DNA from: Rugalucina vietnamica
Lineage: Eukaryota > Mollusca > Bivalvia > Lucinida > Lucinidae
NCBI GenBank assembly: GCA_964017185.1
Contig: OZ024870.1
Coordinates: 62,412,812-62,476,811, forward strand
Direction: 5' to 3'
DNA length: 64,000 nucleotides
Below, piece after piece: positions 832 to 61,640 of the stretch. The translations under genes were made by a program, and so were the position numbers. Every line of letters begins with the position of its first letter. The first letter of the stretch is position 1. The notes below the pieces were generated by a model. It saw only the letters and a list, made by a program, of their open reading frames with translations, did not search any database and was not told where the DNA came from.

Positions 832-2425
832 TGAGCCACTTCGTGGGAAAACCAACAATGTGGTTTCCGAACAGGTCTGACACAAATCAGGCTGCACAGT
901 CACAGAAGCAGGCTAGAAACTTGAAATTTTGGATTTAAGAAGAAGAGAAAGTCTACTATCCGTGTAGCGAAAATGAAAAAAGAGTCAATAAGCAATGCTT
1001 ATTAAATACCCCCCGCAGGGTAATAGTTTACCACAAAAATTAATTTGGCAATAAAATTTCTTCATGCAAATGTCCAATGGGTGTACATCATGTAGGCATG
1101 ATATCAAATTGTTCCACAGAAAACTGTGGTAGGAGTTGATCGGCCCGTGAAGGCCCTTACCTGTAAGAAAAAACTAAGAAAAATTGTCTAAGTTCTGATA
1201 GCTGTCATTTTATCAAAAATTATTTTTTCACAATAAAAATTCTTCATGCAAATGTCCAATGGGTGTACATCATGTTGGCATGATATCAAATTGTTCCATC
1301 AAAAACTGTGGTAGGAGTTGATCGGCCCGTGAAAGCCCATACCTGTAAAAAAACAAAGAAAAATTGTCTAAGTTCTCATAGCTGTAATTTTGTCAAAAAT
1401 TATTTTTTCATGATAAAATTTCTTCATGCAAATGTCCAATGGGTGTACATCATGTAGGCATGATATCAAATTGTTCCATCAAAAACTGTGGTAGCAGTTG
1501 ATCGGCCCGTGAAAGCCCTTACCTGTAAAAAATAGTAAGAAAATTGTCTAAGTTCTCATAGCTGTAATTTTGTCAAAAATTATTTTTTCACAATAAAATT
1601 TCTTCATGCAAATGTCCAATGGGTGTACATCATGTAGGCATGATATCAAATTGTTCCATCAAAAACTGTGGTAGGAGTTAATCGGCCCGTGAAAGCCCTT
1701 ACCTGTAAAAAAAGTAAGAAAATTGACTAAGTTCTCATAGCTGTAATTTTGTCAAAAATTACTTTTTCACAACAAAATTTCTTCATGCAAATGTCCAATG
1801 GGTGTACATCATGTAGGCATGATATCAAATTGTTCCATCAAAAACTGTGGTAGTAGTTGATCGGCCCATGAAAGCCCTTACCTGTAAAAAATAGTAAGAA
1901 AATTGCCTAAGTTCTCATAGCCGTCATTTTGTCAAAAATTATTTTTTCGCAATAACATTTCTTCATGCAAATGCCCAATGGGTCTACATCATTTAGGCAT
2001 AATATCAAAACGTTCCAACAAAAACTGTGGTAGGAGTTGATCGGCCCGTAAATGCACTATCTTCACTGTATACAAAAGGCATCAAGAACTATAAAGGGAA
2101 GTAACTCAAAAGGACCTGATCCCTAGCCCTTAATTTTTGCATGTACATATTTGCCCCATAGATATGCAGATGCCTGCAAAGTTTCATGAAATTCCATCAA
2201 TGGGTCTTCAAGATATTAAAGAAACAAAACGTTACGGACGCACGCACGGATGCACGGACGGACGGACGGACGGACGGACAACGTGAAAACAGTATACCCC
2301 CCTTAAAACTTCGTTTTGGCGGGGGGTATAACAAAGGCGCTGATCAGCTTCGCGGTTACCGTGAAGCTGATCTGCGTCTTTGTTTTCGCTTATGCAGATT
2401 GTTGGTTTTCCCATGAGGCGGCTCA
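832..2425 (-). repeat. MITE-1 copy split by a family A insertion
   Basis: The left part (832 to about 975) and right part (about 2331 to 2425) join into one MITE-1 in minus orientation. The sequence breaks within the GCGAAAACAAAGG motif and resumes at ACAAAGGCGC, so the 1.35-kb family A element entered an existing MITE-1. Confidence 0.8.
981..2333 (+). mobile_element. Family A Helentron-like tandem-repeat element
   Basis: The 5' end has a small hairpin (AATAAGC / GCTTATT, near 987-1003) followed by TACCCCCC. The core is six tandem units of about 180 bp (CTTCATGCAAATG recurs near 1060, 1242, 1422, 1602, 1782 and 1962). After the core come an ACGG tract at 2245-2280 and a 3' hairpin at 2293-2330 whose arms are TATACCCCCC and GGGGGGTATA. 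The 3' arm matches the 5' TACCCCCC motif. No protein is encoded. Assignment to non-autonomous Helentrons is by architecture only. Confidence 0.7.
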
Positions 2426-2520
2426 TTTACAAGGTGAGTGGCTTACCAACTACCCCACAATGGCCTCTCAAAAATAGATTACACTCAAAGCATTTGTTCA
2501 TGCTACGAAAGTATTGTGTA

Positions 2521-2714
2521 GGTCAACCTTGTTATAACACTATCTTTGGGGTCCATAGAAACAGACCATGTTGTAAGTAAACTGTGTTATAATAAGGTAA
2601 TTTACAATAGACATATAGGCAAATAATCATTTTGGGAGCCATGTCATGCCCGTGTTATATTGAAAACCGCATTATAGTGTCAGAGGTGCGTTATAATGAG
2701 ATTGAATTGTATAT
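2521..2714. repeat. Repeat K (MITE with TTATAAC ends)
   Basis: Begins GGTCAACCTTGTTATAAC and ends with the inverse type TTATAATGAGATTGAA. Two other copies are at 57351-57532 and, split, at 5876-5930 plus 15752-15893. They share the internal motifs TTTGGGAGCCATG and GGGGTCCATAGAAACAGAC. The right end lies 2 to 5 bases from the donor of the DHX9 exon at 2718. Confidence 0.7.
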
Positions 2715-2717
2715 TAC

Positions 2718-2789
2718 CTGTGTAACAATGATATTACACTCAGCTCCTCTCCCAACATCTATCATCTCCTCCAGTATAAACTGAGGAAC
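2718..2789 (-). CDS. DHX9: DHX9 coding exon 12 (after Walker A)
   Basis: 24 codons, phase 0 at both ends, from VPQFILEEM to CNIIVTQ (residues 417-440). It corresponds to human VPQFILDDF...CNIVVTQ, the stretch between helicase motifs I and Ia. The acceptor is TTTTGCAG, the donor CAG/GTAATA. Repeat K starts within a few bases of the donor. Confidence 0.95.
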
Positions 2790-5700: not shown

Positions 5701-8700
5701 GGTTCCTGTTTAAATGCTTTTTCCTGTTATAATTATATGGGCAATGTCATGTTCAGGCCCGTCTGCAGGGTTTCAGATCAGGGCCAAAACAATTTTCACT
5801 AAAATCAAGTTTTACAAGTGGCATATTAGTGGTCTTACATTCAGTATTGTACTTAAACTGAGAAAATTCCAAAGATAATAAACTTCAACCTCATTATAAC
5901 GCACATCACTATAATGCAATTTTTAACATAAGAGCTGTCGCAGGACAGCATAGCTCGCCTGACTTGTGCTTTGTCACTAAATCTATTAAATCTACGACCA
6001 AAGACATTGACCTCATTGTCACTCAGGTGGGTTGTGATGGTACAGCATAAAACTTCAGACCAATATACACAGTATGTTAACTTATTACGTAATCAGTGTA
6101 CTTCAATCGGATGTTGATCGTGTGTAAACAATGATTACACATATTCGTTTGTTACATGTTTATGGAAATCTTTATAATTTGAGGTTTATATCTCGGAAAA
6201 ACTGTGTGACATAATATGGTTTAGCTATAGTCGCCTAAATAGGGTAAGTTAGAAGTATTTTCGTATGTTTTTGTATTTTGATTCTTTCATTCAATGATAA
6301 TCTCACTGCAAAGGCAAGCGTCTCGTGGGCGACTGATTGCTTACATGGCGAGTTTTTAAACGAAAAAGGCCATATATCTATCTTTATAGAAGTGAATGAA
6401 ATAGGCATTTTAGTTATCTAGATGTTGTTCAAAGGATTCTATCAGATTCCTCCGAGAAAATGTTCTAAATTGATTCTAAAAGACACCCACGACAAATCTA
6501 AAGATGTCCCATTTTTTGACTGCAATGTGTACGACTTAATGATTTTATATGATGCTGTAATGTACCATTTCATACAATTAATGCAGGCATTCTTGCAGTA
6601 AACGCATCCTTTTATTGCACTTTATGTACCCGTTATTTCGGTCACTATGTCTGATACAACATTACTGAATAAGTAATAATACATTTTGTAGCCACTACTA
6701 CTATTTTTACGCACTCTGACGTTACTTTTCTTCATACATGCACGAGTTTCGTTGACCATTAAAATAAGATTCTCATTTTATGTTAAACCAAACCTGAGTA
6801 AAGGCATGATTTGGAAGGTATTATATAATTATATATGACCTATTTATGAACTCTTTCTAGGAAGACCATCTGATTACTATTAAACTGTTCCGGTTTGAGC
6901 CTGCCCAGGAAAAGTGGTTAAGGTCAAACCATCCAGACATATTATACGCCTTTGTGGCTTAGTTGGATGGTTATATTTTAAGCACGTGTTGGATGTCATC
7001 ACATTCTCATTTTTGGTAAAACGTGGTTCACCGTGGCCAAATCCTATAATCGCTGTCACACTATTGCGTATCGACTCACGTATCTACGGCGTATCAAGAT
7101 TCGAAAGGTACCCTACTTCACGCGTACGTCGTACATACGTGAGCATACGTAGCTAATACTCCTCGACATGTAGCTCATACTCCTCATATGCCGAGTTGTT
7201 ACGTTTTTATGTGTGCACTTAAAAATTCGTAGCACGTACATGTAAGTAGCAGGTCCGATACGCCGTACATACGCCACACATACATCGTACATACGAAAGC
7301 AATGTGGCAGATACGTAGCTCATACTCTTGATACGCCACACGTACGTCGCGGTTAACATGCCACGTAACCGTGACGTATGTACAGCGTTGCTTTCGTATC
7401 TGCTACGTATGTGTGGCGTATCCTCGACTCTCTTTTCGTATCTACGGCGTATTAGCGACGCATGTGTGTCGTATCTCGCGTATAAATGGCGTATGTGCTA
7501 CGTACGTATCGCTGCTGTAGAGTATGTGTGACGCATACGGAGCATTAGGAATATTTTGTGGCGTTCCAAGAGAATCTTAATGCTTCTATATAATTGTTTT
7601 CGTTCTTCCGAAGTCATGGATCAGATGTTTCTCACGGTTCTGGGTGCCATGCAGGGTTTGTTCAAATCTACGCTAGGTGTAGCGTCTGTCTTTGATCATG
7701 TCGTCTTACGACCAGGATAGGGAACTTGGAGAGCACCCCCCCGCACCCCCCCCCCCCCCACCTCGATTTTTTTCGGTGTTAATCTAGATTATGTAGATTT
7801 TGCCGGTGGCATCCTCGACCTCTGTAATGTGCGAATTGCCTGAACAAAGTGAACACAACCCTTTGTTTTCTCAAAGGTATTAAAAAGCAATTGGTACAGA
7901 ACAGATACACCGCAGATAAGAAAGGAACGTTGTACATACGTCGTAGATACGTCACGTGTACATTCCATACGCCATACATACGACATATGTACGTAGAACA
8001 TTCGCCTTGATACGCCGTACAAACGAATTTGAAATTTCATAGGAATACTGATACGTCACTGATATTTGCACTGTGGATGTTCGTAAGATTCTAACGTGAC
8101 CCCGCAGTGTGTGTTCTGGGCGAAATGTGAAGAATATCAAACATTTTCCCAAAGAATTTTTCCTATTTCTTATACAGTTGAAAAAATCTCCGTATTTTGT
8201 AGGGGCAAGTAACCACGTGCAAGAAACAAATTAAAATGCAAGCTATTGTCTGGATCAGACATTACCAAATGCACGCTTCTTAGTCATCTCTATGCTCAAC
8301 ATATTGCTGTCGAAGCTGGTTCTACTCGGACAACAACTCGTTCTTTTTCGCTTTCGATACGAGCAGTTGTACCAGAGTACATGTAAGTAAGTTTTCCTTC
8401 TGACATTGGAAATTCCATTAACTGTACAAGAATTGACAAAATGGTTAGAACGATTTGTACTCGAAAAATACGTCTACACATCTGTGCAATGCTGGGGCGA
8501 CCTAAATGACTTTATTTAGACAGATAATAATATTTTGGAATGTAATCTATCTATACTTTTTAGAAACGCTTATTTGCATTTGGTCTCGAAATGACTGAAT
8601 AAATGTTGACTTAGATTTTAAGCACCACACAAACAAACAGACATTGGTCTAGACAGCATGGACGTGTTGTCGTGATAGGATGATTCTGTTTATATCTCTG

Positions 8701-9245
8701 AAATAAAAACGGTTTTGTTGCGTGTGCACTATTGTTTGTTTCAGTATATATCATTTGATTTCTTGCTTTTTACTGTGAGAGACTCAAACCTCCTACCAGC
8801 AATCTTTATAAGACACACTTACCATGTAACCGAATTCATACTGTGGATCAAACTTGAAAATTCCGAAACACTATGAAACTCTTTTTGTATTCCAACTACA
8901 TTTATTTCACGAAAACACACTTTGAGGCAAAAAAACACGTGTTTCTAAATCTACCTAAGCGGACCCCCATAGCGATAAATGGGACTGATATAACAACCTT
9001 TTAGATATTCAATTATTTTATTGGATAATTGTATAAATGATTGACATGTGTCGATTTTGACAAGCATAACTGAAAACCTGGCTCACCTTTTTGATAAGAT
9101 GTGATTTCATAGTCAATTTGATCCATATCGTGTTAAAGGATAACAAAAATATGTATATTTAATCATGTTAATTGGGGATGTTCTTTTTTTACCTTTATGA
9201 CAGTTTCCCCTGCTTGAATTACCAAACAATTTCACCACACAATAT

Positions 9246-9280
<35 letters not shown>

Positions 9281-12200
9281 TTTTTCGGAGTGGCTATTAC
9301 CAGTCAACTGTCACTAGCCAAAAAACGTTAAAATGGCTATTACCAGTCAACTGTCACTAGCCAAAAAACGTTAAAATGGCTATTACCAGTCAACTGTCAC
9401 TAGCCAAAAATAGTTAAAATGGCTATTTACAGTCAAGTTCAAAAATAATTATTTACTTAGTATGTGATAACATGTTTCTGACAAACTTGGGACTGAAACT
9501 ATGTTTCATTAGATCCAAGCCTTATTTGTATTTTTAACATTTTATTTAATTATATGAACTTATTGGGAATGCATTGATTGACAATGCAATACATTTTTTA
9601 TATATATTAGTTATGATATTAACGTTGCTATTGTTTCGTTGGTCGCGTGTTTAGGACCATGCAACATTGACTTTCATAATGAGACGTTGAATTGTTTTTC
9701 TTCATCTCATCCGAAACAAATGCAAACTGAATGCTGAAAAAATTACTAAATTACTTGCCAGCTACAATTAAATTGACTATTTTTTTTACTAAAAACTTGA
9801 AAAATTATAAAGATTAATGCATAGTTTAGTTTTGAAAGAAAGAGCAACATTGTATTTTTTTTTCATTTATAGTTCAAACTAATTGTACATGTTTATATAT
9901 ATGTCATTGTGCATAAGAATTTTGCAATTGTAGACTGAGACAAACATGCGAACTTGCTGGCAACGTTTATGAGTACCGCACCAAACTTTCTGTAAAAAAA
10001 TCATAACATGCGCGCGCGTGTGCTTGCATGTGTCCGATTCGACATCGCCACATATTACGTAAACTTGTTTATGAACATATGTATACATTCATTTTTCCTC
10101 TTCCCTTGATCCAAGATCGGTGGTCTAATGTGCACTAAGTTGGCAATCTGCTAAGATAAAGGTTTTGTATGAATTGATGCTTAAAGTCCCAGTCAACAGT
10201 TAAGGTCATGTCGGGACGCTGCTGCCATTTTATGGAACTTTTACCCAACATGATGATCACATACAACAAGTGCTTAAAATATAACCCGATCTAACTAAGC
10301 CACAAAAGTTTCATACGTATGGATGGTTTGACATGAACCACTTTTCCTGGGCAGACCAGAGCGGTTAATTCGTAATCAGATGGTCAGCCAGTAGTGTACT
10401 AGCAGCCCATCTATTTCTTTAAGCCCTAATGGGCGGGCACCCTTTAGTTAAAAGGTGCGGCCAAGATAAAATGAGCGTGGCGGCATTACATTATACAGGT
10501 ATTTAACATAAAATGAATACATAAAATGTTTCAACATTGCTGTTATTCAGCCAACTGCCTTCGCTGCTGGAGCTGGTAACTTGTGACTGACTGGCTCAAA
10601 TCTGGAGGTTTTTGATGTTTTAGGTTTTGTAATCAAAGTAGACCATGCCAATAATGTTATCATTTGAAGTAACATGGTGTATCGAACGTCTTTTTGTGTG
10701 TCCTTTCCTGATTTAATGACACCTCTATATGCGATCACGTCATCAAACTGTAGAGCCGCGTCACAATAAAAGGCATTCGAGATTTCTGATTAGCTCTGAA
10801 GCCGGGCAGGACAGACACAGTAACGGTTTGAGAATCAGGATTAACAGACAATGCATTGTGCTTAATAAATAACAAAACAGGAGCGTGGGCTAAAAGCTGT
10901 ATAAAAATGCACTTTTGTTTCGATTAAAAAAGTTAAATAGATTTTCTTGTGGTGCGGCTCAGGTGTCATAGAACACAAGAATACCCCTAAAATGTTTTAA
11001 CAGTATGCGTGGTCGAGCTTCTCTTTACAAACCTTTAGGCATTTTTATGACAATTTACCTTTGAGGTGTATTCGTGTGCGCCAATCTTTGATAAACCGCA
11101 AAGAATTACAGAATTTGACTAAATATGTATTTAAAATCAGGTACGCATGCCGCGTATACACTGTAAAACAATAAATGTATTCGAGTTTTATTTGGATCAT
11201 GAACAGCTGAGACTGACTGACTGACTGAACGCACCTCAGGTGTACTTAACCACTTGAAGTCGTTTTAAAACTCTTTCTGATCTTTTTCAGTTTACTCTTT
11301 CTTTCTTTCATTTTTGTTTTCGTTTTTCGTTTTTAACATTGCCTTTTGGGTTTTTTTGTGTGTGCGTGTTGAACTCAAATGCTTCTGTTATAGAGCCACG
11401 TGTATATGTATTTGAGGGCCCCAATATTGGTGAACACTTAATTGGTCAACCGCACATAATAAAGAAGTTAATTTCTTACTAAAAATCTTCACAAATTGTG
11501 ATTTTTTTGGTAGGTACATTCTATACAGCCGTTACGCATAGCGATTAGAAATGCAAAAAATAATGAATAATTACATCCGTGGGCACAAGGCAGGCAATGT
11601 TTTGGGCAAGTAATTGCATTTTCTATTCTAGCCTGAATACCCGGACATGAGATCAGCTGTTAACCGTGGTTAGCAATGCATTTATTCAAGCGATAAACAT
11701 TAAGTGGCCGTCATCTGACTTGAGTTTAGCCGAAAACCACGAGGACTGGGCTCCGGCATTGGAAGCTGAATTAATTTGTCACATTATCTTAATGGTGAAA
11801 AGAAGATAAGAGCCGAAAGACCAAACACTTTTCAAGCAAAAATGAAATTTCAAGTCTGACTGTAAATAGCCATTTTAACGTTTTTTGGCCAGTGACAGTT
11901 GACTGGTAATAGCCATTTTAATGTTTTTTGGCTAGTGACAGTTGACTGGTAATAGCCATTTCAACGTTTTTTGGCTAATGACAGTTGACTGGTAATAGCC
12001 ATTTTAACGTTTTTTGGCTACTGCCAGTTGACTGTAAATAGACTCTTCCTTTATTTATTCTGTATTGCCACCATGAATATATTTTCTGCATTGCCATATT
12101 CGCTCATATGTAACTGATCTGAGTACTTATCTGAGCTTTCAATAAAGAGAATGTTTGCTGTTTGATTTTTTTATACGACGCAGGAACGTAGCAGGAACGT

Positions 12201-12792
12201 CACACGTACGTGCTAGATACTTCGCTCGAACAAAATATGGCTCAGACCTCGGCGTATCGAAATTCTCATAGATATGCGAGCGATACGCCGCTGATACCTG
12301 AATGTGTGACAGAGCTTTTAAAGACGGTTTGCACCAGTTCCGACCCGGTTCACCCTGATAGTGTTCCGGTGAGACCCCGGATTTTGCCGGAATAACCAGT
12401 AGTTGTTCCGATTACTCAAGGTTTATGCTAGACGGAATATTTCCATCGTTATTCCGTAAGACCTCTCCATCATGGGAGAGGAGCGAGGTCACGAAGTGTA
12501 TCGGAGTGCAGGTTAGCCAGCTGATCTAGGTTTATGCCGGATTATGACGGTCGAGCTCCGGTGGTATCACTGTTGGTTCAGGTGTTTCCCCGCTGATACG
12601 TGAATGTGTGACAGAACTATTAAATACGGTTTGCACCAGTTCCGCCCCGGTTCACCCTGATAGTGTTCCAGTGAGACCCCGGATTTTGCCAGAATAACCA
12701 GTAGTTGTTCCGATTACTCAAGGTTTATGCCGGATTATGACGGTATAGCCCCGGTGGTATCATGGTTTGTTCCGGTGTATCCCCGCTGTTGT

Positions 12793-12828
<36 letters not shown>

Positions 12829-15800
12829 AGGTTAGCCCCGGTTGCATTAAACATTTAAAACGATCGTGAATGCTCCCCGGTTTATCCCGGTTTGCCAAGG
12901 TACACATGTAGCGCGACGGTTCTGTCACGGTGAAACCCGGTTTGTCAAAAGTGAATCGAAGGTTCACAAGGTGAGCTTATAGGATAGACTTGAAACGGTG
13001 CCCTTCCGTGTGCCAGAGAATCCGTGCGGCTGTCAACATTTTCACAAATGAGTGTTCTTGAGACATGATAACCAAAGGCAATAAACTTTTATATAAAACA
13101 TGATTAGGATGGTGGGTTGCCTGCGTGGAAACGTTACATTGTCATTATTTGGTTACAAAATATAATGGATTTTTTATTTTGCATTTTCACCGTCTGTCCG
13201 TGTTACATGTATATGGCCATTATTGTTTCAAATAGAAATCATATTGTGCATGTATAATGCGGTGCTAACTGCTAGGTGCAGATTAAGAGAAACGTCGAAT
13301 AATATTTACAGCACATTTAATTATATACTAAGATGCTTATCTCTGCACAAAACGAAATGTACGTAACCATTTATAGGGTATGAAATATTTGAAATTTATC
13401 CGTGCTGTTTGAAACTAGGTTTTCTTTAATTCGGACTAGGTCCAACATTAGTCTGTACAGTCACAGATGAAGGCTAGAAAAATGTAAAAGTAGGCAATGA
13501 TCAGGAAATGGCACAATCAGAAAGAAATTCCCAATCCAAAAACTGATGTGGCAAAAAAAAAATAAATAATCAATCAGGTATACTTATACTAAGAAAACAA
13601 ATCGTACGCAGAGTGAAAAGCTATTTTCCCAGCAGGTGGCCACTCATTTATCAAACTTAACCAAAAACACAAAAGCGCACATAATGTGCAAACAGCACAC
13701 ATATATCTGCTTTGCTTGGGAAACCCTGTAGGGGCTTACCATTCGAAGATCACACAGAGCAGACTACGCATGATATGCTGACAAAAACACGTTGGTCAGG
13801 ATTCATTTAATAGTAGTATTTTCCACTAATTTTAATCGCATATCATTGCCCCGGCTACGCACTCTCGTAGTCAGTACAGACGACTTACTTATATGTACAG
13901 TTCTTCGCTTAGAATTGCAATATAAGCGGCACCACGGCCGTGACTGAACTACCTTTGACGCTGCTACATTGTATAATCCGAAAATAAACACGTAATTTCA
14001 GCAAGCGTGAAAAAATGTGTTTATCCATGTTTGAAAATGTTGACATCTGGACGAAAGAGCGCACTCTGATTCTTTAACCTAGCGTTTTATCTTTCACCTC
14101 AAATGAGCTAAATCAGCTATTTAGTGATTTTTTTTCCCTAATAATTCCGTGCATCAATAAACTGATATTTGTGGTCAGCATAAAGTTTTATGCCGTAACA
14201 AGTTTTGAAAACAGCACAGTAGAGACCAAAGAAAAGTTTATTTATCGTAATATACTTTGATTTAAACTCATCTACTGCCGCTAACAGAATTTTTCATCAC
14301 TGAAAATGGTACACTGAATCATCAGGTAATGGTACATTCTTTCCATTAGGAATAACGGAAAATGGGACATTCGAAAATACAGCAGGCCGTCTATTTGTCG
14401 GAAGTTTTCCCCATTATGTAAGATACCACAACCATATCAATTAAACATTGATGAAATAGGGTATTTATGGATTACATTTAAACCTTACATCTTTGGATAA
14501 ACACACTGATCTCACAAAGCGGGTCTGTTTTAGCGCAAGTTCTGTGTGTTAAACAATGTCTTTGGAACGAGTTTTACAATTTTATGCTGTTTTAAGATTC
14601 AAAAATGTGTAAGAGACGTCAAGCCTACCTAGGCTGGTTATCCAGACGCCAATCAAGTCCAAATTCTTCTTTCCAGCAACGAAACCCTTTGCCAAACGCG
14701 AAATATCCGACAACTAGATATACACGAATATGTGTAATCATTGTTTACACATGATCCACATCCGATTGAAGTACACTGATTACGTAATAAGTTAACATAC
14801 TGTGATATAAGGTCTACCAACATGCTAAGTTCAACTTGATCCACCTACATATTTGATATAGACTTATAACCTAAAATCTAAGTCTGTGACCTTGACCACA
14901 GGTGAGTCAAGATGCTACAGCATAATAAAAGAATAATATCTAACAGCAAAGTATCAACTAGATCCATCCATCTGTTCCAGCAATATACAGTTCAAAACAC
15001 TTTAAGCAAAAGCTTTAACATAAAATTTCAAAGTCTGTGACCTTGAACTCAAGGTCACCCAGGTGGGTCATGATGGTACAGCATAAAACTTCAGACCAAT
15101 ATCTACCAACATGCAAAGTATCAACTTGATCTCTCTACATATACCCAAAAACTCTAACACAAAATTTCTAAGTCCGTAACCTTGACCTCAAGGTCACCCA
15201 GGTGGGTCATGATGGTACAGCACAAAACTTCAGACCAATATCTACCAACATGCAAAGTATCAACTTGATCCCTCTACATATTCAAGAGATATAGACTTAT
15301 AAAAACTTTAACCAAAAACTCTAACACAAAATTTCTAAGTCCGTAACCTTGACCTCAAGGTCACCCAGGTGGGTCATGATGGTACAGAATAAAACGTCAG
15401 ACCAATATGTACCAACATGCAAAGTATCAACTTGATCCATCAACAACTTCAAGAGATATAGACTCATAAAAACTTTAACCAAAAACTTTAACAAAAAATT
15501 TCTAAGTCCGTGACCTTGACCTCAAGGTCACCCAGGTGGGTCATGATGGTACAGCATAAAACTTCAGACCAATATCTACCAACATGTAAAGTATCAACTT
15601 GATCCATCAACAACTTCAAGAGATATAGACTCATAAAAACTTAAACCAAAAACTTAAACATTTTGAGCAACGCCGACGCCGACGCTAATGCTAACGCCGA
15701 CGCCGGGGTGACTACAATAGCTCTTCCTGTACTTTCGTACAGGCGAGCTAATAACACAGCCATGTCAGGGCTCCCAAATTTATACTTTTGCTAGACATCT

Positions 15801-18800
15801 ATGGTAAGTAGCCTCATTATAACATGGTTTTTACTTGTAACACAGTCTGCTTCTATGGACCCAAAAGGTAGCGTTATAAAGAGGTTGACCTGTAAAACTG
15901 TAAAAGCAGTAGAAATTCTTATTCAATGTCTATTGGGAATTAATGGAAAATACTGCAGTTCCTTGAATATTTTTATCACTGGTACTACAGGGTACAGTAT
16001 TTGTTGATTCAAGTTTGACTTTGTTCTGTTTTAGTCAAACAAAGAAGAAACTAATCTTACAGGCACATTAGGTTGTATTCCCCATTCTTTTAATGCTTCA
16101 TCAACCTTGGCCTCTAACTCTGGAGAGATAGCCACCTCGTAGGGGTCAATCTGAAATTATATACATATTTTCAAATGAAAATTCCAGAGGGAATGGATTA
16201 TAAGAATCTTAGGCATGGATAGACAAATCTGTTCCAAAGATCACTTTAGACGCGTAAGGCACATGATTGTTTTTTTTTTTTGTTTTTTTTTTTTTTTCAC
16301 TTCATTAGAAAGTGGAGTTTTCTTCAACTTAAGCTTGAAAAAGGCTGCAATAATGTCCGTCACTTTGAAAGCTTTTGACATTAACAATAACCTAATGTGA
16401 TGCCCTATACAACCAATGTTAACACTAAAACACATGGCCACTGGGTCAGACACCCAGAAGCAGATAGATATTTCTGACCCTGACCAAGACTTTGGATTTA
16501 CAGATACATGTACTATCTCATGAGGTGTGAATATAATAACTGTCAAAAAACTTAAAAGACTATCATCATCAAATAAGCCGTAATGTGAGAAATCTTCAGG
16601 ATTTCCAACCAGGTCTGACACAAACTAGCCAGTGTACCTACAGAATATGGCTAGAAGCTTGAAATTTCAGATTTAGGAAGAAGGGGAATTGTACTATTCG
16701 TGTAGAAAAAACAAATGTGCAGTTACTACACACTTGATCTGCGCCTTAGGCAAAAATCCAGTTTCCTCACGACACGGCTCATACCTTATCTCCTTCTTTC
16801 TTCTTGATCTGTCCTGTGTAGGCCTCTATAACCTTCATATGGTACAGTTGTCGAACCAGAGACAGGGCGCAGGACTTGGACGCTACTTGTTTGTTAGAGC
16901 CATGCTCACGGGCTGAGATATCTAGAGCAAAAGAATGGCATGGTCATATAATGTTTGTTTGCAAAATACACTTCAATTTGGATGCCAAAACCAAAGCTAC
17001 AGACATTTTCTTACTCTCTAAGAAGTCAAGCTATTTCAGGGGAGATGTTTGAATATTATTGTAATACATTTTGTGTGTGTGGTGTGTGGGGTCGGGGGAA
17101 ATTTAACCTGACTACTGATTATTTATGAAAACTACAAGTAACCAGAGGACCAATGGTCCTGTAAACGCTCACCTGAGATCTGCTGTATATACGAATGTTA
17201 TAGAAAATAGTCCCAGTATAGGTGCAGATGAAGCCCTTGGGAAATTTTTTTTCTTCAGAATAATCAATATACTGTCCATACAAGTTTTTCCCTTCAAATG
17301 ACATTTTAACAGTTTACCCATTCAAATACATAGGCAACCCATGTTGACCTTGGTTTAAAATAGGTCAAGGTCATCACAGGGTCATGATTTATACATACAT
17401 TGTAGTACTTGAGTTATCGATGCTTCATGCCAAGTTTCTTCCAAATTGGTCCACCGGTTCCGGAGAAGAAGATTTTTGAAGGGTTTATACCATATATATG
17501 GGCATGGAGGCCATCTTGGTCATGTGACCTTATTTATATACACATTGATTCTCCCATTGTATAGATGCTTCACATGAAATTTGGCTTTGATTGGCCAAGC
17601 AGTTTCAGAGGAGAAGATGTTTGAATATTATGGTAATATACATGTATAATGCCCCGGGGCTGGGGCAAATGAGCCCCTGGGGTCCATTTTTTTCAGAATC
17701 ATTAATATTCAGTCCTACTGCCCATTTCCTGCAAGACTTTCACTTTAAATGACATTTTAAAAGTTTTCCCCATTCAAATGCATTGGCGACCTATGTTGAC
17801 CTTGCTGTAAAATAGGTCAAGGTCATCCAAAGGTCATAATTTATAATCACATTGTAGTACTTCAGTCCCCGATGCTTCATGCCAAGTTTTGTTGAAATCG
17901 GTCCATTGGTTCAGGAGAAGAATTTTAAAGGGTTTTTATCATATATGGGCATGGCGGCCATCTTGGTCATGTGACCTGGATTATTTATAAACACATTGAT
18001 TCCCCCTTCCCATAGATGCTTCCTATAAAATTGGGCTTTGATTGGCCAAGTGGTTTCAGAGAAAAAGATCTTTGAATATTTTTGTAATATACATGTATAT
18101 TGCCCCGGGGTGGGGGCAGACCAACCCCTGGGGTCCAAATTTTTTTCAGAATTACCTACCTTCAGTCCATTTGCCCATTTCCTGCAAGATTTGCCTTTCA
18201 AATGACATTTTAACAATCTTCTTCATTCAAATGCATGAGCGACCTATGTTGACTTTGCTGTAAAATAGGTCAAGGTCATCCAAAGGTCATAATTGTAGTA
18301 CTCTAGTCCCCAATGCTTCATGCCAAGTTTCGTTGAAATCGGTCCAGTGGTTCCACAGAAGAAGAATTTTGAAGGGTTTTTACCATATATGGGCATGGCG
18401 GCCATCTTGGTCATGTGACCTGGATTATTTATAAACACATTGGTTCCCCCTTCCTATAAGTGCTTCATGTAAAATTTGGCTTTGATTGGCCAAGCGGTTT
18501 CAGAGAAGAAGATCTTTGAAAATGGTGGACGACGACGGATGACGGACGCCGGATCATGGCCATCCTATAAGCTCACCTTGTGAGCCTAACAGCTCAGGTG
18601 AGCTAAAAAGTTTTTGTGAAATGCTGCAGATGCCTATTTTTTAAGCCAAAACATGATCATGTTGTAACCATAAACATGGTAAAACAGGTAGCATTATTAA
18701 GGTATATGTGTGTACATCTTAGAAGTCAGAATCTTTCAACAGAGTAATTTATTTAGGATGCGCTAATAGATAGCCAACACTCCCAATAGTGCAGTCAACC

Positions 18801-35212: not shown

Positions 35213-35244
35213 AAAAACAAGCGAAGCGATATCCATCCCAAACG

Positions 35245-38392: not shown

Positions 38393-38943
38393 GGATGCCA
38401 TGGAATGAAACTTAACCCTACAGGGTACCTATGGTCCGAGTATGAAAGCCCTCTGATAAAAAGTTTTCAAGATATAGACTTCTACAATACTATATCACAG
38501 AAAAGCCATTATTATTAATGGTGTTCTAGATTTTAACCTCTAGCCCCACCCCCTGGCATGGACCCAGGGATCTGATGCCATGGAATGAAAGCCGACCCTA
38601 CAGGGTGTCAATGGCCCAAGTATCAATGCTTTCTGATGAGTGGTTGTCAAGATATGGACTTCTAGAAAACTTTAACACAAGAATTGCCATTTTTGAAGGT
38701 GTTCTAGATTTTAACCTCCAGCCCCACCCCCTGGCCTGGACCCAGGGGCCCGATGCCATGGAATGAAAGCTAACCCTACAGGGTATCTATGGTCCAAGTA
38801 TGAATGCTTTCTGATGAGTGGTTGTCAAGATATGGACTTCTAGAAAACTTTAACGCAAGTGTGACACGCACGCGCATGGGAACGGGAACGTGGACGACCG
38901 GGGTGACTGCAATAGCTCTATGCACTTCGTGCAGTCGAGCTAA
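38393..38943 (+). mobile_element. Family F variant (F2): F-type 3' end on a different core
   Basis: Three units of about 180 bp (GATGCCATGGAATGAAA at 38393, 38574 and 38753), then an ACG-rich stretch, CCGGGGTGACTGCAATAG and a 3' hairpin at 38913-38942 (TAGCTCTATGCAC / GTGCAGTCGAGCTA). The last 60 bases closely parallel F1 (CCGGGGTGACTACAATAG), although the core sequence is unrelated. Confidence 0.65.
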
Positions 38944-49770: not shown

Positions 49771-50792
49771 GTCGTATTATTCTGTTCTCTGATTGACCAA
49801 GTGCACAGGTTAACGGGGATCTAGTTTTGAAAACATGGAAATTAAAGCAAGAAAATGCCTAATAAAATTATGCCCGTGAACCTTAGACTCCACGTTATAC
49901 AGTAAAACGTGTGATACATGGGTAGACAATTTTTTCTTATATTTGCTTGACACATAGATTGTGTGTACTCTAAGAATCGCCTCTAAAGTGTAACCACAAT
50001 CTAATGGTTTTAGCAAAAATAGAACAACTCAGTTGTGGTCAATGCCATCACTCTTTGAAAGTTCAATGATACGGCTTTTTTATGACTGAACTCTGTAAAA
50101 TAATGTCTCTGTTTTGTTTGGCGAGTTAGAGCCTTTGCCTATGTGAAATTGGCAACCCTGAAGCAAGTTTGTGCAACCACCAGTGCGTTGTACCAATGAG
50201 TCAAAAAATGCTCCCAGTGCGTTGTAATAGAAAATCCACTATAAAACGTTTGCTTTGATGCCAAGAAAAAAATTGGCAATCGGAAATCGTGTTTCTTGAA
50301 TGTTTATTCATAAATATGTGATAATATAACAACAACTATGCTCAAACATGCACTTTCCCCTCAATTTTGGCTCGAAAACACATGCCACCGGTCATGCTGG
50401 TTGAACTGTATCGGATTTGGGTTCTAACCCATTAAATAAATCGCATATTGCGTGATAAAACCATGAACTGCAAGGCTTGCGCCCTTCTCTGCGCTAGGTG
50501 ACATGACAATTAAATTACATACAAATTTATAAGGGAATGGTAATGACAAGAGGTATAAGATTTGTTTACCTTTTCCGCCATTTTAATCTTACTCCAGTGC
50601 GTAATTTAGACTGCACCAGCTCGTTGCAACCAGCTCCAGTACTTTTACATTTACCAGTGTGATTGTGCAAGACTAGATACAAATCACTCGTATTTCAGAC
50701 AGGCTTTAAAGGTACTAGTGCAAGTTAATACAAGAGGACCAATGGCCCTGTAAACGCTCACCTGAGAACTGCTGTGTATACCAATAAACATG

Positions 50793-52038
50793 TGTAATAT
50801 ATTGGCAATATATTGTTATATTGTTGTTTATTTTAATACTTAATTTCTATCATTTACCTGTGGTTTAATCTTTAACATTTGTTCTCATTCTCCCCCACAC
50901 TCCTTCACAGGAAACTCTTCGTTCATATATGTAAAGCAGGAAGATTGATATTTCAGAATTGTTCTAATTATAACTTCTGTGTGAATGTGATGCTAGGAAG
51001 TGTGTTTGCCTTATAGGATGATACATGTGGGTGAGTATGTTTGAAGAGGAAACGTAGTAACCATATTTGTATTAATGTATGAAGTGTGGGTGCAAGAAGG
51101 AAGTATAATAGCCTTATTTGTGGAATGAATGGGGTATGAAAGAGCTTGTAAAGAGTAAGAATATCACTGCAAATTATTATGCATATGTTATACTGTTCAT
51201 TATTGGGATATTTTTCTAAGATGTTTGTTTTATTTTAATTTTAAATGTATGGTTGAGATAGTAAAGATACATGATTTCTGTCAATTATTTTATTTTTATT
51301 ATCTATAGAAAATGGACTGTGTGAGAGTGTAGTATTTTTTTTTCCTCTGGTAAAATTAAAAAAAAATATATATATTTTCTTCTTTTTTAAATTCAATGGT
51401 AGTAAATATTTTGGTTGTTGTTTGTTTTTTTGTTGTTTTTTTTTCTGCGGGGGATGTAATATATTGGCAATATATTGTTATATTGTTGTTTATTTTAATA
51501 CTTAATTTCTATCATTTACCTGTGGTTTAATCTTTAACATTTGTTCTCATTCTCCCCCACACTCCTTCACAGGAAACTCTTCGTCCATATATGTAAAGCA
51601 GGAAGATTGATATTTCAGAATTGTTCTAATTATAACTTCTGTGTGAATGTGATGCTAGGAAGTGTGTTTGCCTTATAGGATGATACATGTGGGTGAGTAT
51701 GTTTGAAGAGGAAACGTAGTAACCATATTTGTATTAATGTATGAAGTGTGGGTGCAAGAAGGAAGTATAATAGCCTTATTTGTGGAATGAATGGGGTATG
51801 AAAGAGCTTGTAAAGAGTAAGAATATCACTTTGAATGCTTTAGTTCTATCAATTGCATTAGTTATTAACATCAAACTGAACTTTGGAAATATAACATCTA
51901 AAATTGTTGATATAATTATTTTGAGTTGAATTTGGTTTTAGTTTTGGATGAACAATAGAAAAGTATATTCTATAAAATAAAACAGTAAAGCTAAACAGTA
52001 GAACGACTTATTTATGAGTTAATTCCCGAGATATTACA
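50793..52038 (+). mobile_element. LTR retroelement fossil, small and non-coding
   Basis: Outer ends TGTAATAT and ATATTACA with a 4-bp flank duplication CATG (50789-50792 and 52039-52042). Two long direct repeats start at 50793 and 51455. About 0.3 kb of interior separates them, ending in a polypurine-like stretch. It is broken and has no coding region. The direct repeats are nearly identical, so the insertion is fairly recent. Family not assignable. Confidence 0.7.
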
Positions 52039-52293
52039 CATGTTTGAATCTTATTGAAAATAGCCTCTGTAAAAGGGGCAGATGAAGCCCTGGCCATTTT
52101 TTTTCAGAATAATCAATATCCTGTCCACTTGCCAATTTCCTGCAAGATTTCCCTTTAAACGACATTTTAACAGTTTTCCCCATTCAAAGGCATAGGCGAC
52201 CTATGTTGACCTTGTCGTAAAATAGGTCAAGGTCAACACAGGATCATGATTTATATACACATTGTGGTACTTTAGCCATCAATGCTTCATGCC

Positions 52294-52470
52294 AAAAAGG
52301 TACAAGTAGGCAAAGATCAGGAAAAGGCGCAATCAGAAAGAGATTCCCACTCCAAAAACCGGTGGGAAAAAACCAAACTAACAATCAGGCACTTATACCA
52401 TGAAACATATCGTAAGCCGAATGAGCAGCTATTTTCCCAATAGGTGGCCACTCAGTTACCATGAAACATA
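52294..52470 (+). repeat. Repeat G copy 2
   Basis: AAAAGGTACAAGTAGGC to CATATCGTAAG inside a family C unit. CATGAAACATATCGTAAG occurs twice within it. Confidence 0.65.
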
Positions 52471-52874
52471 TCGTAAGTTTCTTTGAAATCGTTCCACCAG
52501 TTCCAGACAAGAAGATTTTTGAAGGGTTTTTACCATATATGGGTATGGCGGCCATCTTGGTCATATGACCTGGATTATTTATACATATTGGTTACTACAT
52601 CCTATAGATGCTTCACATAAAATTTGGCTTTGATTGGCCAAGCGATTTCAGAGATGTTTGAATATTATGGAGATATACATGTATATTGCCCCGGGTTGGG
52701 GAGCCCCTAGGGTCCCCTTTTTTCAAAATAACTAATATTCAGTCCTACTGCGCATTTCCTGCAAGACTTTCCCTTTATATGACATTTTAAAAGTTTTCCT
52801 TGTTCAAATGCATTGGTGACCTTTGTTGACCTTGCCATAAAATAGGTCAATGTCATCACAGGGTCATGATTTAT

Positions 52875-53745
52875 TATCGCACCTGCTTACAGCATGGTGC
52901 GATATAGGAGTCCAAATTTCTGTCCGTCCGTTCGTTCGTCCATCCGTCCGTCAACATTTACGTTGAAGTTTGGTTTTCTCGACATCAGAGATAGCTGTGA
53001 GTCTGAAGCCTTGCATAGTAATTGTCCCGGACATACCCTTCAAGCATGCACGTTAACCCGGTGGCTTTGACCTATATTTCACGGCCCACTGACTTTGAAA
53101 ATTTTTACGTCGAAGTTTTGTCAACATTTACGTCGAAGTTTGGTTTTCTCGATATCAGAGATAACTGCGAGTCTGAAACCTTGCATAGTAATTGTCCTTG
53201 ACATACCCTTCAAGCACGCACCTTAACCCGGTGCCCTTGACCAATATTTCACGGTCCACTGACTGAAAATTTTTACGTCGAAGTTCGGTTTTCTCGACAT
53301 CAGAGATAGCTGCGAGTCTGATACCTTGCATAGTAATTGTCCTTGACATACCCTTCAAGCACGCACCTTAACTCGGTGCCCTTGACCTATATTTCACAGT
53401 CCACTGACTTTGATAATTTTTATGTCGAAGTTTGGTTTTCTCGACATCAGAGATAGCTGCAAGTCTCAAACTTGCATAGTAATTGTCCTTGACATACCCT
53501 TCAAGCATGCACCTTAACCCGGTGCCCTTGACTTATATTTCACGGTCCACTGACTTTGAAAATTTTTACGTCGAAGTTAGGTTTTCTAGACATCAAAGAT
53601 AGCTGCGAATCTGAAACCTTGCATAGTAATTGTCCTTGACATGCCCTTCAAGCACGCACCTTGACCCGGTGCCCTTGAACTATATTTCATGGTCTGTTGA
53701 CTTTGCCCGATGCAGGTGTGATATCGACCTCTGCGGAGTTCTTGT
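52875..53745 (-). mobile_element. Family D Helentron-like element (D2)
   Basis: Minus orientation. The 3' hairpin at 52875-52904 (TATCGCACCTGCT ... GGTGCGATA) is followed by CCGTCCGT repeats, five units of about 140 bp and the 5' end CTCTGCGGAGTTC at 53745. Inserted between TTTAT and ATACA of a family C unit. Confidence 0.75.
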
Positions 53746-54214
53746 ATATACATTGTAGTACTTGAGTAATCCATACTTCATGCCAAGTTTCGTTGAAATC
53801 GGTTCACCAGTTCTGGAGATGATTTTTAAAGGTTTTTACCATATATGGGCATGGTGGCCATCTTGGTCATGTGACCTGGATTATTTATATACACATTGGT
53901 TCCCACTTCCTATAGATGCGTCATATGAAATTTGGCTTTGATTGGCCAAGCGGTTTCAGAGGAGATCTTTGAAATTGTGGACGGACGGACCGACGCCGGA
54001 TCATGGCCATCCTATAAGCTCACCTTGTGAGCCTAACGGCTCAGGTGAGCAAAAAAGTGAACTATGGCATAAATTATTCTGTACTATCAACAGCTAACTA
54101 ACACAAGTAATGTAATCATTTTTCCCAAAACTGTTTTACTGAGTATTCAATTTCTGACCATTACGCATTATCTCAAGAGCTGTGGAATAATTACTTCTCA
54201 AGGCCACAACCAAT

Positions 54215-55019: not shown

Positions 55020-56988
55020 AACCAGAGGACCAATGGTCCTGTAAGCGCTCACCTGAGTCTGCTGCATATACCAATAAACATGTTTGAATATTATGGTATT
55101 TAACCCCAGTGCAGGGGCAGATGAAGCCCTTGGGCCGTTTTCTTTTTTCAGAATAATCAATATTCTGTCCACTTGCCAATTTCTTGCTGGCTTTTCCCTT
55201 CATATGACATTTTAACAGTTTTTCCCAACCCATGTTGACCTTGCCATAAACTTGGTCAAGGTCATCACAGGGTCATGATTTATATATACATTGTAGTACT
55301 ATAGCCATGGATGCTTCACGCCAAGTTTCATTGAAGTCAATCTATTGGTTTCAGAGAAGAAGATATTTGAAGGGTTTTTACCATATATGGGCATGGCGGC
55401 CATCTTGGTCATGTGACCTAGATTATTAATATACACATTGGTTCCCCTATCCTATAGATGCTTCACATAAAATTTGGCTTCAATTGGCCAAGTGGTTTTA
55501 GAGGAGAAGATGTTTGAATATTATGGTAATATACATGTATATTGCCCCGTGGTGTGGGCATATGAGTCCTTAGGTCCATTTTTTTTTCAGAATCATTAAT
55601 ATTTAGTCCTACTACCCATTTCCTGCAAGATTTTCACCTCAAATGACTTTTTAAAAGTTTTCCCCATTCCAATGCATTGGCTACCTATGTTGACCTTGTC
55701 CTAAAATAGGTCAAGGTCACCACAGGGTCATGATTTATATATACATTGTAGTACATCAGCCATTGGTGCTTCATGCCAAGTTTCTTTGAAATCGGTCCAC
55801 CAGATTCTGAGAAGAAGATTTTTGAAGGGTTTTTACCTTATATGGGCATGGCAGCCATCTTGGTCATGTGAACTAGATAATTTATATATACATTAATTCC
55901 CCCATTCCATAGATGCTTCACATAAAATTTGGCTTTGATTCGCCAAGCGGTTTCAGAGGAGAAGATGTTTGAATATTATGGTAATATAGATGTATATTGC
56001 CCCGGGGTGGGGGCAGATGAGCCCCTGGGGTCCAATTTTTTTCAGAATCATTAATATTCAGTCCTACTGCCCATTTCCTGCAAACTTTCACTTTAAATTA
56101 CATTTTAAAAGTTTTCCCTATTCAAATGCATTGGCGACCTATGTTGACCTTGCCATAAAAAAAGGTCAAGGTCATCACAGGGTCATGATTTATATACACA
56201 TTGTAGTACTTGAGCCATCGATACTTCATGCCAAGTTTCTTTGAAATCGATCCACCAGTTCTGGAGAAGAAGATTTTTGAAGGGTTTTTACCATATATGG
56301 GCATGGCGGCCATCTTGGTCATGTGACCTGGATTATTTATATACACATTGATTACCCCTTCCTATTGATGCTTCACATAAAATTTGGCTTTGATTGGCAA
56401 ACCGGTTTCAGAGGAGATGATGTTTGAATATTATGGTAATATACAAGTATATTGCCCCAGGGTGGGGGCATATGAGCCCCTGGGGCCCAATTTTTTTCAG
56501 AATCATTAATATTCAGTCCTACTGCTCATTTTCTGCAAGATTTTTCCTTTAAATGACAATTTAACAATTTTTCCCATTCAAATGCAAAGGCGACCTATGT
56601 TGACCTTGCCGTAAAATAGGTCAAGGTCACCGCAAGGTCATGATTTATATACACATTGTAGTACTTGAGTCATCGATGCTTCATGCCAAGTTTGGTTGAA
56701 ATCGGTCCAGTGGTTCCGGAGAAGAAGATTTTTGAAGGGTTTTTACCATATATGGGCATGGCGGCCATCTTGGTCATGTGACCTGGATTATTTATATACA
56801 CATTGGTTCCCCCTTCCCATAGATGCTTCATGTAAAATTTGGCTTTGATTGGCCACGCGGTTTCAGAGAAGAAGATCTTTGAAAATGGTGGACGACGGAC
56901 GGACGACGGACGGACGACGGACGGACGGACGCCGGATCATGGCCATCCTATAAGCTCACCTTGTGAGCCTGACGGCTCAGGTGAGCTA
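55020..56988 (+). mobile_element. Family C element (C4), uninterrupted
   Basis: 5' ACCAGAGGACCAATGGTCCT at 55021. Four units of about 455 bp (GGCATGGCGGCCATCTTGG near 55390, 55850, 56300 and 56755). GACGGACG tract at 56890-56930, and the 3' hairpin at 56950-56988. This is the cleanest family C reference in the window. Confidence 0.8.
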
Positions 56989-57350
56989 AAAAAAAAAGTG
57001 CTTATTCATTAATTTCTATTTGTTTTATTGTTTGCAAATTAGTCCATTCACTCTAGAAAATCTGTCACTATACTCGTATAGAGCCTATTGGTCAAAACCG
57101 TAAACCCTTATATTTAAAATTGTCTTTGTTAACACTAAGTGTTCCACGCATCTAATTCAGCGGACCCATTTTTCAAATGTACATGTGTATACCCAGACAG
57201 AAACCCATTTTGGCAGCAAATGAAAGACTGATGGAATGTGCAAATCAAAAACAAATCCAAAATAAGCAATTTTCTTAACAATCTTAGGCTAAATGTTCTG
57301 TAAGAACAATCTACACCAGAAAATTTAAAACCCAAAGGCATCATTTTAAA

Positions 57351-58910: not shown

Positions 58911-58925
58911 GAACAGCACACTATA

Positions 58926-59141
58926 TGAGCCGCAAGGCGAGGAAACCTGTCTTCGGGATTTTCAACCAGGTCCAACACAAATCGGCCTATACACCCACAG
59001 AAGAAAGCTAGAATCTTGAAATTTTCGGTATAAGTAGAGGAGGAAATGTACTATCCTTGTAGCGAAACAAAGGCAGCTGCACATCTGATCTGCGCCTTTG
59101 TTTTCGTATAGGCAAAATTCTGATTTTCTCGTGATGCCTCA
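58926..59141 (-). repeat. MITE-1 copy
   Basis: TGAGCCGCAAGGCGAG to TCGTGATGCCTCA; core shortened. Confidence 0.75.
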
Positions 59142-59163
59142 TCTGAACCAATGATATGGATTT

Positions 59164-60712
59164 TTAGCTCACCTGAGCCGTCCGGCTCACAAGGTGAGCT
59201 TATAGTATACCCATGCTCCGTCGTCCGTCCGTCCGTCCGTCCGTCGTCCGTCCGTCCGTCGTCCGTCGTCCGTCGTCCACCATTTTCAAAGATCTTCTCC
59301 TCTGAAACCGCTTGGCCAATCAAAGCCAAATTTTACATGAAGCATCTATGGGAAGGGGGAACCAATGTGTATATAAATAATCCAGGTCACATGACCAAGA
59401 TGGCCGCCATGCCCATATATGGTAAAAACCCTTCAAAAATCTTCTTCTCCGGAACCAATGGACCGATTTCAACCAAACTTGGCATGAAGCATTAATGGCT
59501 CAAGCACTACAATGTGTATATAAATCATGACCCTATGATGACCTTGACCTATTTTACGGCAAGGTCAACATAGGTCGCGAATGCATTTGAATGGGAAAAA
59601 TTGTTAAATTGTCATTTAAAGGAAAAATCTTGCAGAAAATGAGCAGTAGGACTGAATATTAATGATTCTGAAAAAAATTGGGCACCAGGGGCTCATCCGC
59701 CCCCACCCCGGGGCAATATACATGTATATCTCCATAATATTCAAACATCTTCTCCTCTGAAACCGCTTGGCCAATCAAAGCGAAATTTTATGTGAAGCAT
59801 CAATAGGAAGGGGTAACAAATATGTATATAAAAAATCCAGGTCACATGACCAAGATGGCCGCCATGCCCATATATGGTAAAAACCGTTCAAAAATCTTCT
59901 TCTCCAGAACCGGTTGACCGATTTCAACGAAACTTGGCACGAAGCATCGATGGCTCAAGCACTACAATGTGTATATAAATCATGACCCTGTGATGACCTT
60001 GACCTATTTTACGGGAAGGTCAACATAGGTCACCAATGCATTTGAATGGGGAAAACTTTTAAAATGTCATTTAAAGTGAAAGTCTTGCAGGAAATGGGCA
60101 GTAGGACTGGATATTAATGATTCTGAAAAAAATTGGACCCCAGGGGCTCATGTGCCCCCACCCCGGGGCAATATACATGTATATTTCCATAATATTCAAA
60201 CGTCTTCTCCTCTGAAACCGCTTGGCCAAACAAAGCCAAATTTTAAGTGAAGCATCTATAGAATGGGGGAATCAATGTGTATATAAATAATCTAGGTCAC
60301 ATGACCAAGATGGCCGCCATGCCCATATATGGTAAAAACCCATCAAAAATCATCTTCTCTGAAACCAATAGACTGATTTCAAGGAAACTTGGCGTGAGGC
60401 ATCGATGGCTAAAGTACTCCAATGTATATATAAATCATGACCCTGTGATGACCTTGACCAAGTTTATGGCAAGGTCAACATGGGTTGCCTGTGCATCTGA
60501 ATTGGGAAAACTGTTAAAATGTCATTTGAAGGAAAAAGCCAACAGGAAATTGGCAAATGGACAGAATATTGAAGATTCTGAAAAAAGAAAATGGCCCAAG
60601 GGCTTATCTGCCCCTGCACTGGAGTTAAATACCATAATATTCAAACATGTTTATTGGTATATGCAGCTGATCTCAGGTGAGCGTTTACAGGACCATTGGT
60701 CCTCTGGTTTTT
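59164..60712 (-). mobile_element. Family C element (C5)
   Basis: Minus orientation. The 3' hairpin AGCTCACCT ... AGGTGAGCTTA at 59164-59203, a CCGTCCGT tract, three core units, and the 5' end AGGACCATTGGTCCTCTGG at about 60710. Confidence 0.8.
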
Positions 60713-60897
60713 TTTAATTTTTGAACTTGTATGCATGTTACCTATAGCAATAACAAGATCAAATGTGTAAGTTTTTGTGCCAAGTGAAAGAAATATTCAA
60801 CATATTTCAATAGAAACTTAAGTTATTGTGGTTATGCATTAGAACAAATTATAAATGCGCATCAACGCTGCTGCTTGTTTATTTATTTTTTTTTTCT

Positions 60898-61640
60898 ACA
60901 AGAACTCCGCGGAGGTCGATATCGCATCTGCATCGGGCAAAGTCAATAGACCGTGAAATATAGTTCAAGGGCACCGGGTCAAGGTGCTTGCTTGAAGGGC
61001 ATGTCAAGGACAATTACTATGCAAGGTTTCAGACGCGCAGCTATCTCTGATGTCCAGAAAACCAAACTTTGACGTAAAAATTTTCAAAGTCAGTGGACCA
61101 TGAAATATAGGTCAAGGGCACCACGTTAAGGTGCGTGCTTGAACGGTATGTCAAGGACAATTACTATGCAAGGTTTCAGACTCGCAGCTATCTCTGATGT
61201 CGAGAAAACCAAACTTCTACGTAAAAATTTTCAAAGTCAGTGGACCGTGAAATATAGGTCAAGGGCACTGGGTTAAGGTGTGTGCTTGAAGGGTATGTCA
61301 AGGACAATTACTAAGCAAGGTTTCAGACTCGCAGCTATCTCTGATGGCGAGAAAACCAAACTTCGACGTAAATGTTGACAAAACTTCGATGGAAAAATTT
61401 TCAAAGTCAGTGAACCGTGAAATATAGGTCAAGGGCACCGGGTTAAGGTGCATGCTTGAACGGTATGTCAGGGACAATTACTATGCAAGGTTTCAGACTC
61501 GCAGCTATCTCTGATGTCGAGAAAACTAAACTTTGACGTAAATGTTGACGGACGAACGAACGAACGGACGAACGAACGAACGTACGGACGGACAGAAATT
61601 TGAACTCCTATATCGCACCCTGCTATAAGCAGGTGCGATA
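60898..61640 (+). mobile_element. Family D Helentron-like element (D3)
   Basis: GAACTCCGCGGAG at 60902, ATCGCATCTGC, four units of about 146 bp, an ACGA/ACGG tract at 61547-61592, and the 3' hairpin (TATCGCACCCTGCT / AGCAGGTGCGATA) ending at 61640. Confidence 0.8.

Follow-up and report, generated by a model that had tools for sequence, protein, structure and literature searches.

The 64,000-nucleotide stretch of the Rugalucina vietnamica genome analysed here (contig C2:62412812-62476811, hereafter the window; the genome comprises 1.09 Gb in 47 contigs) carries six families of mobile elements with a tandem-repeat core, A to F. With a probability of roughly 0.88, we read them as Helentron-associated interspersed elements (HINEs), every family having its own autonomous Helentron from which it derives and by which it is presumably mobilised. 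Families A, C and E share both ends with elements of 12-13 kb elsewhere in the genome that carry a long Rep reading frame, and in each case the Rep belongs to a different lineage. An initial annotation of the window had already likened the families to Helentron-derived HINEs and proposed looking for a Rep/helicase element with matching ends. The likeness is supported, in that the plan it described is the published HINE plan read in the opposite orientation, and Rep elements of this kind were found for A, C and E at both ends and for B at the 3' end. In what follows, 5' and 3' refer to the published Helentron convention.

Autonomous elements were sought with the PF14214 profile over the genome contigs, which gave 150 scored hits among 409 candidates; 30 Rep loci were fetched. 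Open reading frames (ORFs) hit by PF14214 reach 3542 aa. With (V/I)ExQxRGSPHxH taken as the Helentron-type Rep motif, RGSPHxH is present at 26 of the 30 loci; L016 and L018, both of the lineage linked to B, read RGW, L009 reads RGL, and at L010 no motif was read. In the eight first 2.5 kb stretches upstream of Rep, no family 5' end was found in canonical orientation. Farther upstream, four of five stretches contain a canonical, mismatch-free family 5' end, of type A in L087, of type C in L086 and L090, and of type E in L088, while L089 showed no family 5' end. Downstream of the ORFs lie the corresponding 3' ends, with 95% identity over 44 bases for A (L078), 95% over 37 bases for C (L091) and 92.5% over 40 bases for E (L092). 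An E-type motif at L072, with one mismatch and on the opposite strand, did not recur as an E 3' end. The A partner thus delimited spans C5:34989985-35002211 (12.2 kb, L087 to L078), the C partner C4:80762899-80776034 (13.1 kb, L086 to L091) and the E partner C4:65678181-65691519 (13.3 kb, L088 to L092). The profile search reports their ORFs as open frames of 2500 residues in A, 2621 in C and 2422 in E. At both ends, A, C and E have at least 11 identical bases of the subterminal inverted repeat (subTIR) in common with their autonomous element.

Four Rep lineages are linked to family ends, with 31-41% identity over the stretches that were compared. Identity is 41% between the A lineage (L019) and the E lineage (L025/L026), 36% between A and the C lineage (L033-L038), 34% between C and E, and about 32% between the B-linked lineage (L016) and the other three. 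The 5' ends of A, C and E match over 11-13 bases when set against the 3' end of their own autonomous element, and over 3-5 bases when set against those of the other two. Since the three partners carry the same ends as the three families and each encodes a different replication protein, the ends look matched by sequence, not by shape alone. Sequence-specific pairing predicts such an own-end excess but is not proved by it. Together with the association of three Rep lineages (34-41% identical) with three end sequences, the excess speaks against the initial suggestion that a single replication machinery recognises structure rather than sequence. A plan common to all families is still expected if the Reps have a common ancestry.

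In the C partner, the last 379 residues match two endonuclease families, PF03372 (E 7.6e-5) and PF14529 (E 2.4e-4), both under the Pfam cut-offs. By eye, the endonuclease-like stretch in these residues is preceded by motifs that we take to be helicase-like. The C partner has an SDH motif close to its C-terminus, and a similar SDH stretch closes the ORF of the A partner. Offset self-matches of about 69 or 138 bases in the 5' part of L011-L013, L019-L023, L025-L030 and L035-L038 suggest that the N-terminal part of Rep ORFs contains tandem repeats in frame. At L079, a long minisatellite with units of about 44 bases (~270-1370, canonical strand) is located downstream of an E-type Rep ORF and within the autonomous element.

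When the 5' border of the C partner was used as a query (about 200 bases of flank and 1350 bases inside), 40 hits were returned, and the starts of 34 of the 39 non-self hits differ by no more than 7 bases. A listed Rep lies downstream on the same strand in eight of the 40, the query included; the distance is 6.3-6.7 kb in seven cases and 9.4 kb in the eighth, and within 15 kb none of the 150 listed Rep hits is arranged in any other way. The 32 hits without a Rep among the 150 could represent HINEs, fragmented copies or elements that the list does not reach. A second member of the C lineage, L036, also has a C-type 5' end (in L090), and the upstream part of the C partner's ORF is 79% identical at the DNA level to that of the L036 element, the match on which the partner's assignment to the C lineage is based. 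Around a second E-lineage Rep on C15, the upstream region (C15:36337831-36341768) shows three successive E-type 5' ends in the same orientation, which may be tandem 5' modules.

For family B, a 3' end (87.5% over 48 bases) follows the ORF of the L016 lineage at a distance of about 0.95 kb; the 5' end of this element was not found. About 0.2 kb before the B-type end, downstream of the same lineage's Rep, L082 holds a diverged C-like 3' end (727-765). The C ends at L080 were considered as marks of a partner and rejected: together they form a whole C HINE downstream of a Rep ORF. Homology within the L031/L032 lineage ends without a recognised element end, and the outward reading from Rep gave no assignable family end for the lineages of L012, L024 and L031.

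How did the HINEs acquire their arrays? In the autonomous elements of A, C and E, a HINE-like microsatellite and array lie directly inside the 5' end on the same strand, in an array-bearing region that extends over about 1.35 kb in A, 1.6 kb in C and 1.95 kb in E and whose best stretches are 85%, 80% and 92% identical to the respective HINE. At the 3' end, by contrast, homology is limited to the last 46 (A), 41 (C) and 40 (E) bases. Given the position of the family array, just inside the 5' end in each of the three, HINEs have the look of deletion derivatives, and the simplest reading is that one internal deletion, joining the array to the region before the 3' subTIR, would make a HINE. HINEs and autonomous elements may also have captured the same repeats independently. 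In L090 (340-432), only about 100 bases of the 5' end resemble HINE C, followed by short pieces, and the array differs; array likeness is therefore absent from some members, and one end type may go with different arrays. We consider the odds even that arrays arise and persist in autonomous Helentrons, in the part between the 5' end and the Rep gene, that each Rep lineage reads its own subTIR, that one internal deletion reaching to the 3' subTIR yields array-bearing HINEs which the parental Rep spreads by the thousand, and that Reps and ends co-diverge in several parallel Helentron-HINE pairs, with dispersed satellites being seeded along the way.

Within the window, the anatomy of the six families follows a single order. 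The initial annotation had described it as a start motif or short hairpin, a subterminal motif, a tandem core, an ACGG/GACG tract and a 3' hairpin complementary to the 5' motif. All six motif pairs that it quoted were recovered by exact search, and the cores and the tracts are present, but the direction of the plan had to be reversed: both the autonomous elements and the literature set the opposite orientation, in which the former 3' hairpin is the canonical 5' subTIR with its neighbouring inverted repeat (IR) and the former start hairpin is the 3' palindrome. By eye, an IR beside the 5' subTIR and a palindrome near the 3' end are present in all six families. Tandem arrays are likewise found in six of six, with 4-base or similar short tracts detected by Tandem Repeats Finder in A-D and by eye in E and F. 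Calling the families unrelated was too strong, as A, B, D and E start with TTAT and C and F with TTAGCTC.

Pairing of the ends was quantified as the longest exact inverted match between the 20 bases opening one end and the 60 closing the other, in ten window copies of families A-E with 1000 shuffles per copy as the control. In seven of the ten, the match is 11-13 bases (A 11; B at 31545 11; C 11, 11 and 11; D at 23711 12; E 13), versus a shuffle maximum of 8-10. The other three have eroded pairs that do not exceed the shuffles (B at 27138 with 6 bases, D at 60898 with 7 and D at 52874 with 7). Family F, whose ends were compared by eye outside the shuffle test, has 11 bases in common, TAGCTCGCCTG. 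Between families, ends match over 3-7 bases, compared with 11-13 for intact copies of the same family. A pattern excluding the HINE interior, meant to find C partners, instead matched a one-base-shifted variant of the C 3' end. It is useful as a count: this variant occurs at 2438 places in the genome with at most two mismatches, and the reversed pattern at 0; the places listed are the first ones, all on contig C1.

The motifs lie at the borders of the elements, as had been proposed, wherever this was tested (families A, C, D, E and F). Copies of families other than C were sampled as the 40 best candidates per family. In stacked copies, both ends are seen at 28 of 30 A loci (L055 and L068 are without the far end) and at seven of eight C loci (L003 is without it). 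BLAST extents agree within a few bases in 33/39 and 36/39 non-self hits on the two sides of D, and on one side of E (35/40), of F (32/39) and of the F-type element at 38393 (36/39). The flanks and empty sites of A were analysed at 25 loci, L052, L061 and L065 having been left out by a stricter border script in addition to the two loci without a far end. Position -3 of the canonical 5' flank, separated from the border by two free positions, is T in 24 of the 25 copies, for which chance would account with a probability of about 4e-10 if T is taken to have a frequency of 0.36. This T is already present at both clear A empty sites and hence represents a target preference.

Three insertions have a readable unoccupied relative, namely A in the window, A at L060 and D in a C element (a further A site, L045, was not clearly readable), and none shows a target duplication. 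In canonical orientation, the window A junction reads CCTTTG[element]TTTTCGC versus CCTTTGTTTTCGC in the unoccupied state, with a single T that can be assigned to neither side; its joined flanks are spanned by 14 window matches. At L060, there are five empty relatives of more than 90% identity. The D element at 52874, compared by eye with unbroken C sequence in the window, shows one substitution and again no duplication. Insertion at T-rich or TT sites without target duplication is thus seen for A at two sites, with paralogous empty sites, and for D in C. The window A element itself sits in a palindromic repeat resembling a miniature inverted-repeat transposable element (MITE), which also occurs at 4898-5017 and other places in the window.

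The autonomous layout of 12-13 kb comprises a 5' module (TTA and subTIR, IR, GTCC-type microsatellite, array), the Rep gene and a short 3' module of subTIR, palindrome and end; a HINE retains the array-bearing 5' module together with some 40-46 bases at the 3' end, without the gene. We infer a direction and chemistry of movement, mobilisation by the autonomous element and strict sequence specificity. Rep would nick a strand at the 5' border beside TT, and the helicase would peel one strand away until the 3' subTIR and palindrome, acting as a stop signal, are reached. The freed strand would then enter a T-rich site, leaving the target unduplicated. The 5' subTIR could pair alternatively with the neighbouring IR, forming a hairpin, or with the 3' subTIR.

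Could one Helentron machinery move all six families by their hairpin layout, regardless of sequence? The single plan in six families and the shared terminal letters TTAT and TTAGCTC would fit, but different Rep lineages carry different family ends, and end matches drop from 11-13 bases in intact copies within a family to 3-7 between families; we regard this scenario as unlikely. Less probable still is that the end motifs beside Rep genes belong to ordinary HINEs that landed there by chance. HINEs are dense, and a complete C HINE does lie downstream of the Rep ORF at L080. However, A, C and E show a 5' end upstream and a 3' end downstream in the correct orientation, and the sequence read from either end towards the ORF contains no further end of these families, which makes chance HINEs on both sides unlikely; the C 5' end also lies 6.3-6.7 kb ahead of Rep in seven of the eight Rep-paired places. 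We give almost no credence to the families having nothing to do with Helentrons and being satellites or cut-and-paste elements of the MITE kind. Pearl, a bivalve element, was originally classed as a MITE (PMC7492417), but the sharp borders, the three insertions without duplication and the same ends on Rep-bearing elements all speak against this view.

Several observations weigh against deriving each family from its own autonomous Helentron. No partner of D or F was found among the Rep loci examined, and B is represented by one end, on a lineage whose Rep reads RGW and not RGS. A and E each rest on a single element read at both ends. Although the E element has a relative on C15, 99% identical, with the 5' end in common, this could be a segmental duplicate, and apart from C15, the best hits for these 5' ends have no other A- or E-lineage Rep hit nearby. 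The inner upstream region of the A element matched only itself and short pieces, and the C partner's lineage is known from the upstream part of its ORF. Finally, the A-element array is about 85% like HINE A, whereas the window copy and the 40 best HINE A copies are 91-100% alike, so that the A element counts as a relative rather than the direct source.

In the window, family A is represented by one complete HINE (973..2331, minus), with the 5' subTIR and IR hairpin at ~2294-2331, a GTCC-type microsatellite at 2234-2279, a 180-base array at 1049-2049, the 3' subTIR at ~1005-1017, the palindrome at 987-1003 and the 3' end at 973. Of the two B copies (both minus), the one at 27138..28499 has its array at 27193-28407, its microsatellite at 28416-28456 and an altered 5' subTIR, and the one at 31545..32860 has its array at ~31770-32779. 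E is a single complete copy (34017..35213, minus; array 34214-35129). Complete C HINEs are found at 17141..18606 (minus; array 17287-18520), 55021..56989 (minus; array 55228-56883) and, in canonical orientation, 59164..60708 (plus). Two further C places of the initial annotation, 22561 and 50733, are not whole copies and belong to interrupted elements on the minus strand. The former (22556..25601) consists of two pieces, 22556-23553 and 25052-25601, whose intervening DNA includes a complete D HINE (23711..24453, minus). The latter (50727..54057), probably a single element, lies in pieces at 50727-50800, 52035-52295, 52475-52881 and 53742-54057, broken by the plus-strand D HINE at 52874..53745, whose empty site is the unbroken C sequence, and by other DNA. 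The third D HINE is complete (60898..61641, minus), with a mutated 3' subTIR.

Similarly, the F place at 5931 is the far end of a split element (5928..15751, minus), with its 3' end at 5928-6067, its array and 5' end at 14805-15751 and an insertion between them, and the F-type HINE at 38393 (38391..38943, minus) has a different array and the canonical 5' end only. The insertion in the split F element (6068-14804, 8.7 kb) has 102-base inverted ends, 88% complementary and starting CACAGTATG, with ATATA on either side. Inside it are inverted arrays of 43-base units at 9291-9458 and 11834-12001, 90% complementary and about 2.4 kb apart. Elsewhere, window positions 42178-48338 contain two long ORFs of 905 and 1148 aa, the latter resembling by eye the endonuclease and reverse transcriptase of a long interspersed nuclear element. 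A tblastn search of the window with 30 Rep fragments revealed no Rep homology.

Three pairs of autonomous element and HINE can thus be named with coordinates at both ends, and a fourth at one end. Such matched sets of Reps and ends within one genome provide material for asking whether Helentron Reps read sequence or shape. In addition, inheritance from the 5' part of the autonomous element offers a simple origin for the arrays, which would also explain their constant orientation.

Finally, we would like to place these families into the context of known systems. The plan of the six families is already known as the HINE plan; its members here are new. Cg_HINE of Crassostrea gigas is described with an 11-12-base 5' subTIR, a complementary IR, a microsatellite (GTCY, GTCC or GTCK in several), an array, a 3' subTIR and a palindrome, and with TT targets and no target-site duplication (PMC7492417). 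Oyster HINEs carry the most abundant dispersed satellite-like arrays. In one study they could not be related to autonomous elements (PMC7492417), and a second states that no evidence of autonomous elements was detected in oyster (PMC7992393). In the accessible literature, which excludes most subscription papers, we found no description of a mollusc in which HINEs with arrays are paired with an autonomous Helentron that has one as well. The window families share with Cg_HINE the subTIR, IR, 4-base microsatellite including GTCC, array, palindrome, TT target and lack of duplication (PMC7492417); unlike Cg_HINE, three Rugalucina families have autonomous counterparts that correspond to them at both ends and that also contain the array. 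By description only, the tandem core between conserved flanks is also like that of the bivalve elements pearl, CvA, CvE, CvG, MgE and DTC84 (PMC7492417, PMC11136912), and Pearl was, according to the same sources, later re-classed as a non-autonomous Helentron. The Helentron/HINE plan of Drosophila and mite is similar in PMC4067079, where DINE-1s are reported to be 98% identical to their partners in three Drosophila species. The window families resemble DINE-1/HINEs and Helentrons as described there in their subTIRs, 3' stem-loop, T-rich target and Rep-bearing partner with common ends, which in the window families would, as in the published elements, also encode a helicase and an endonuclease, as well as in the IR, which DINE-1 also has. 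They differ from DINE-1 in that every window family bears an array and that the partners are about 80-92% identical in the array, versus 98% (PMC4067079).

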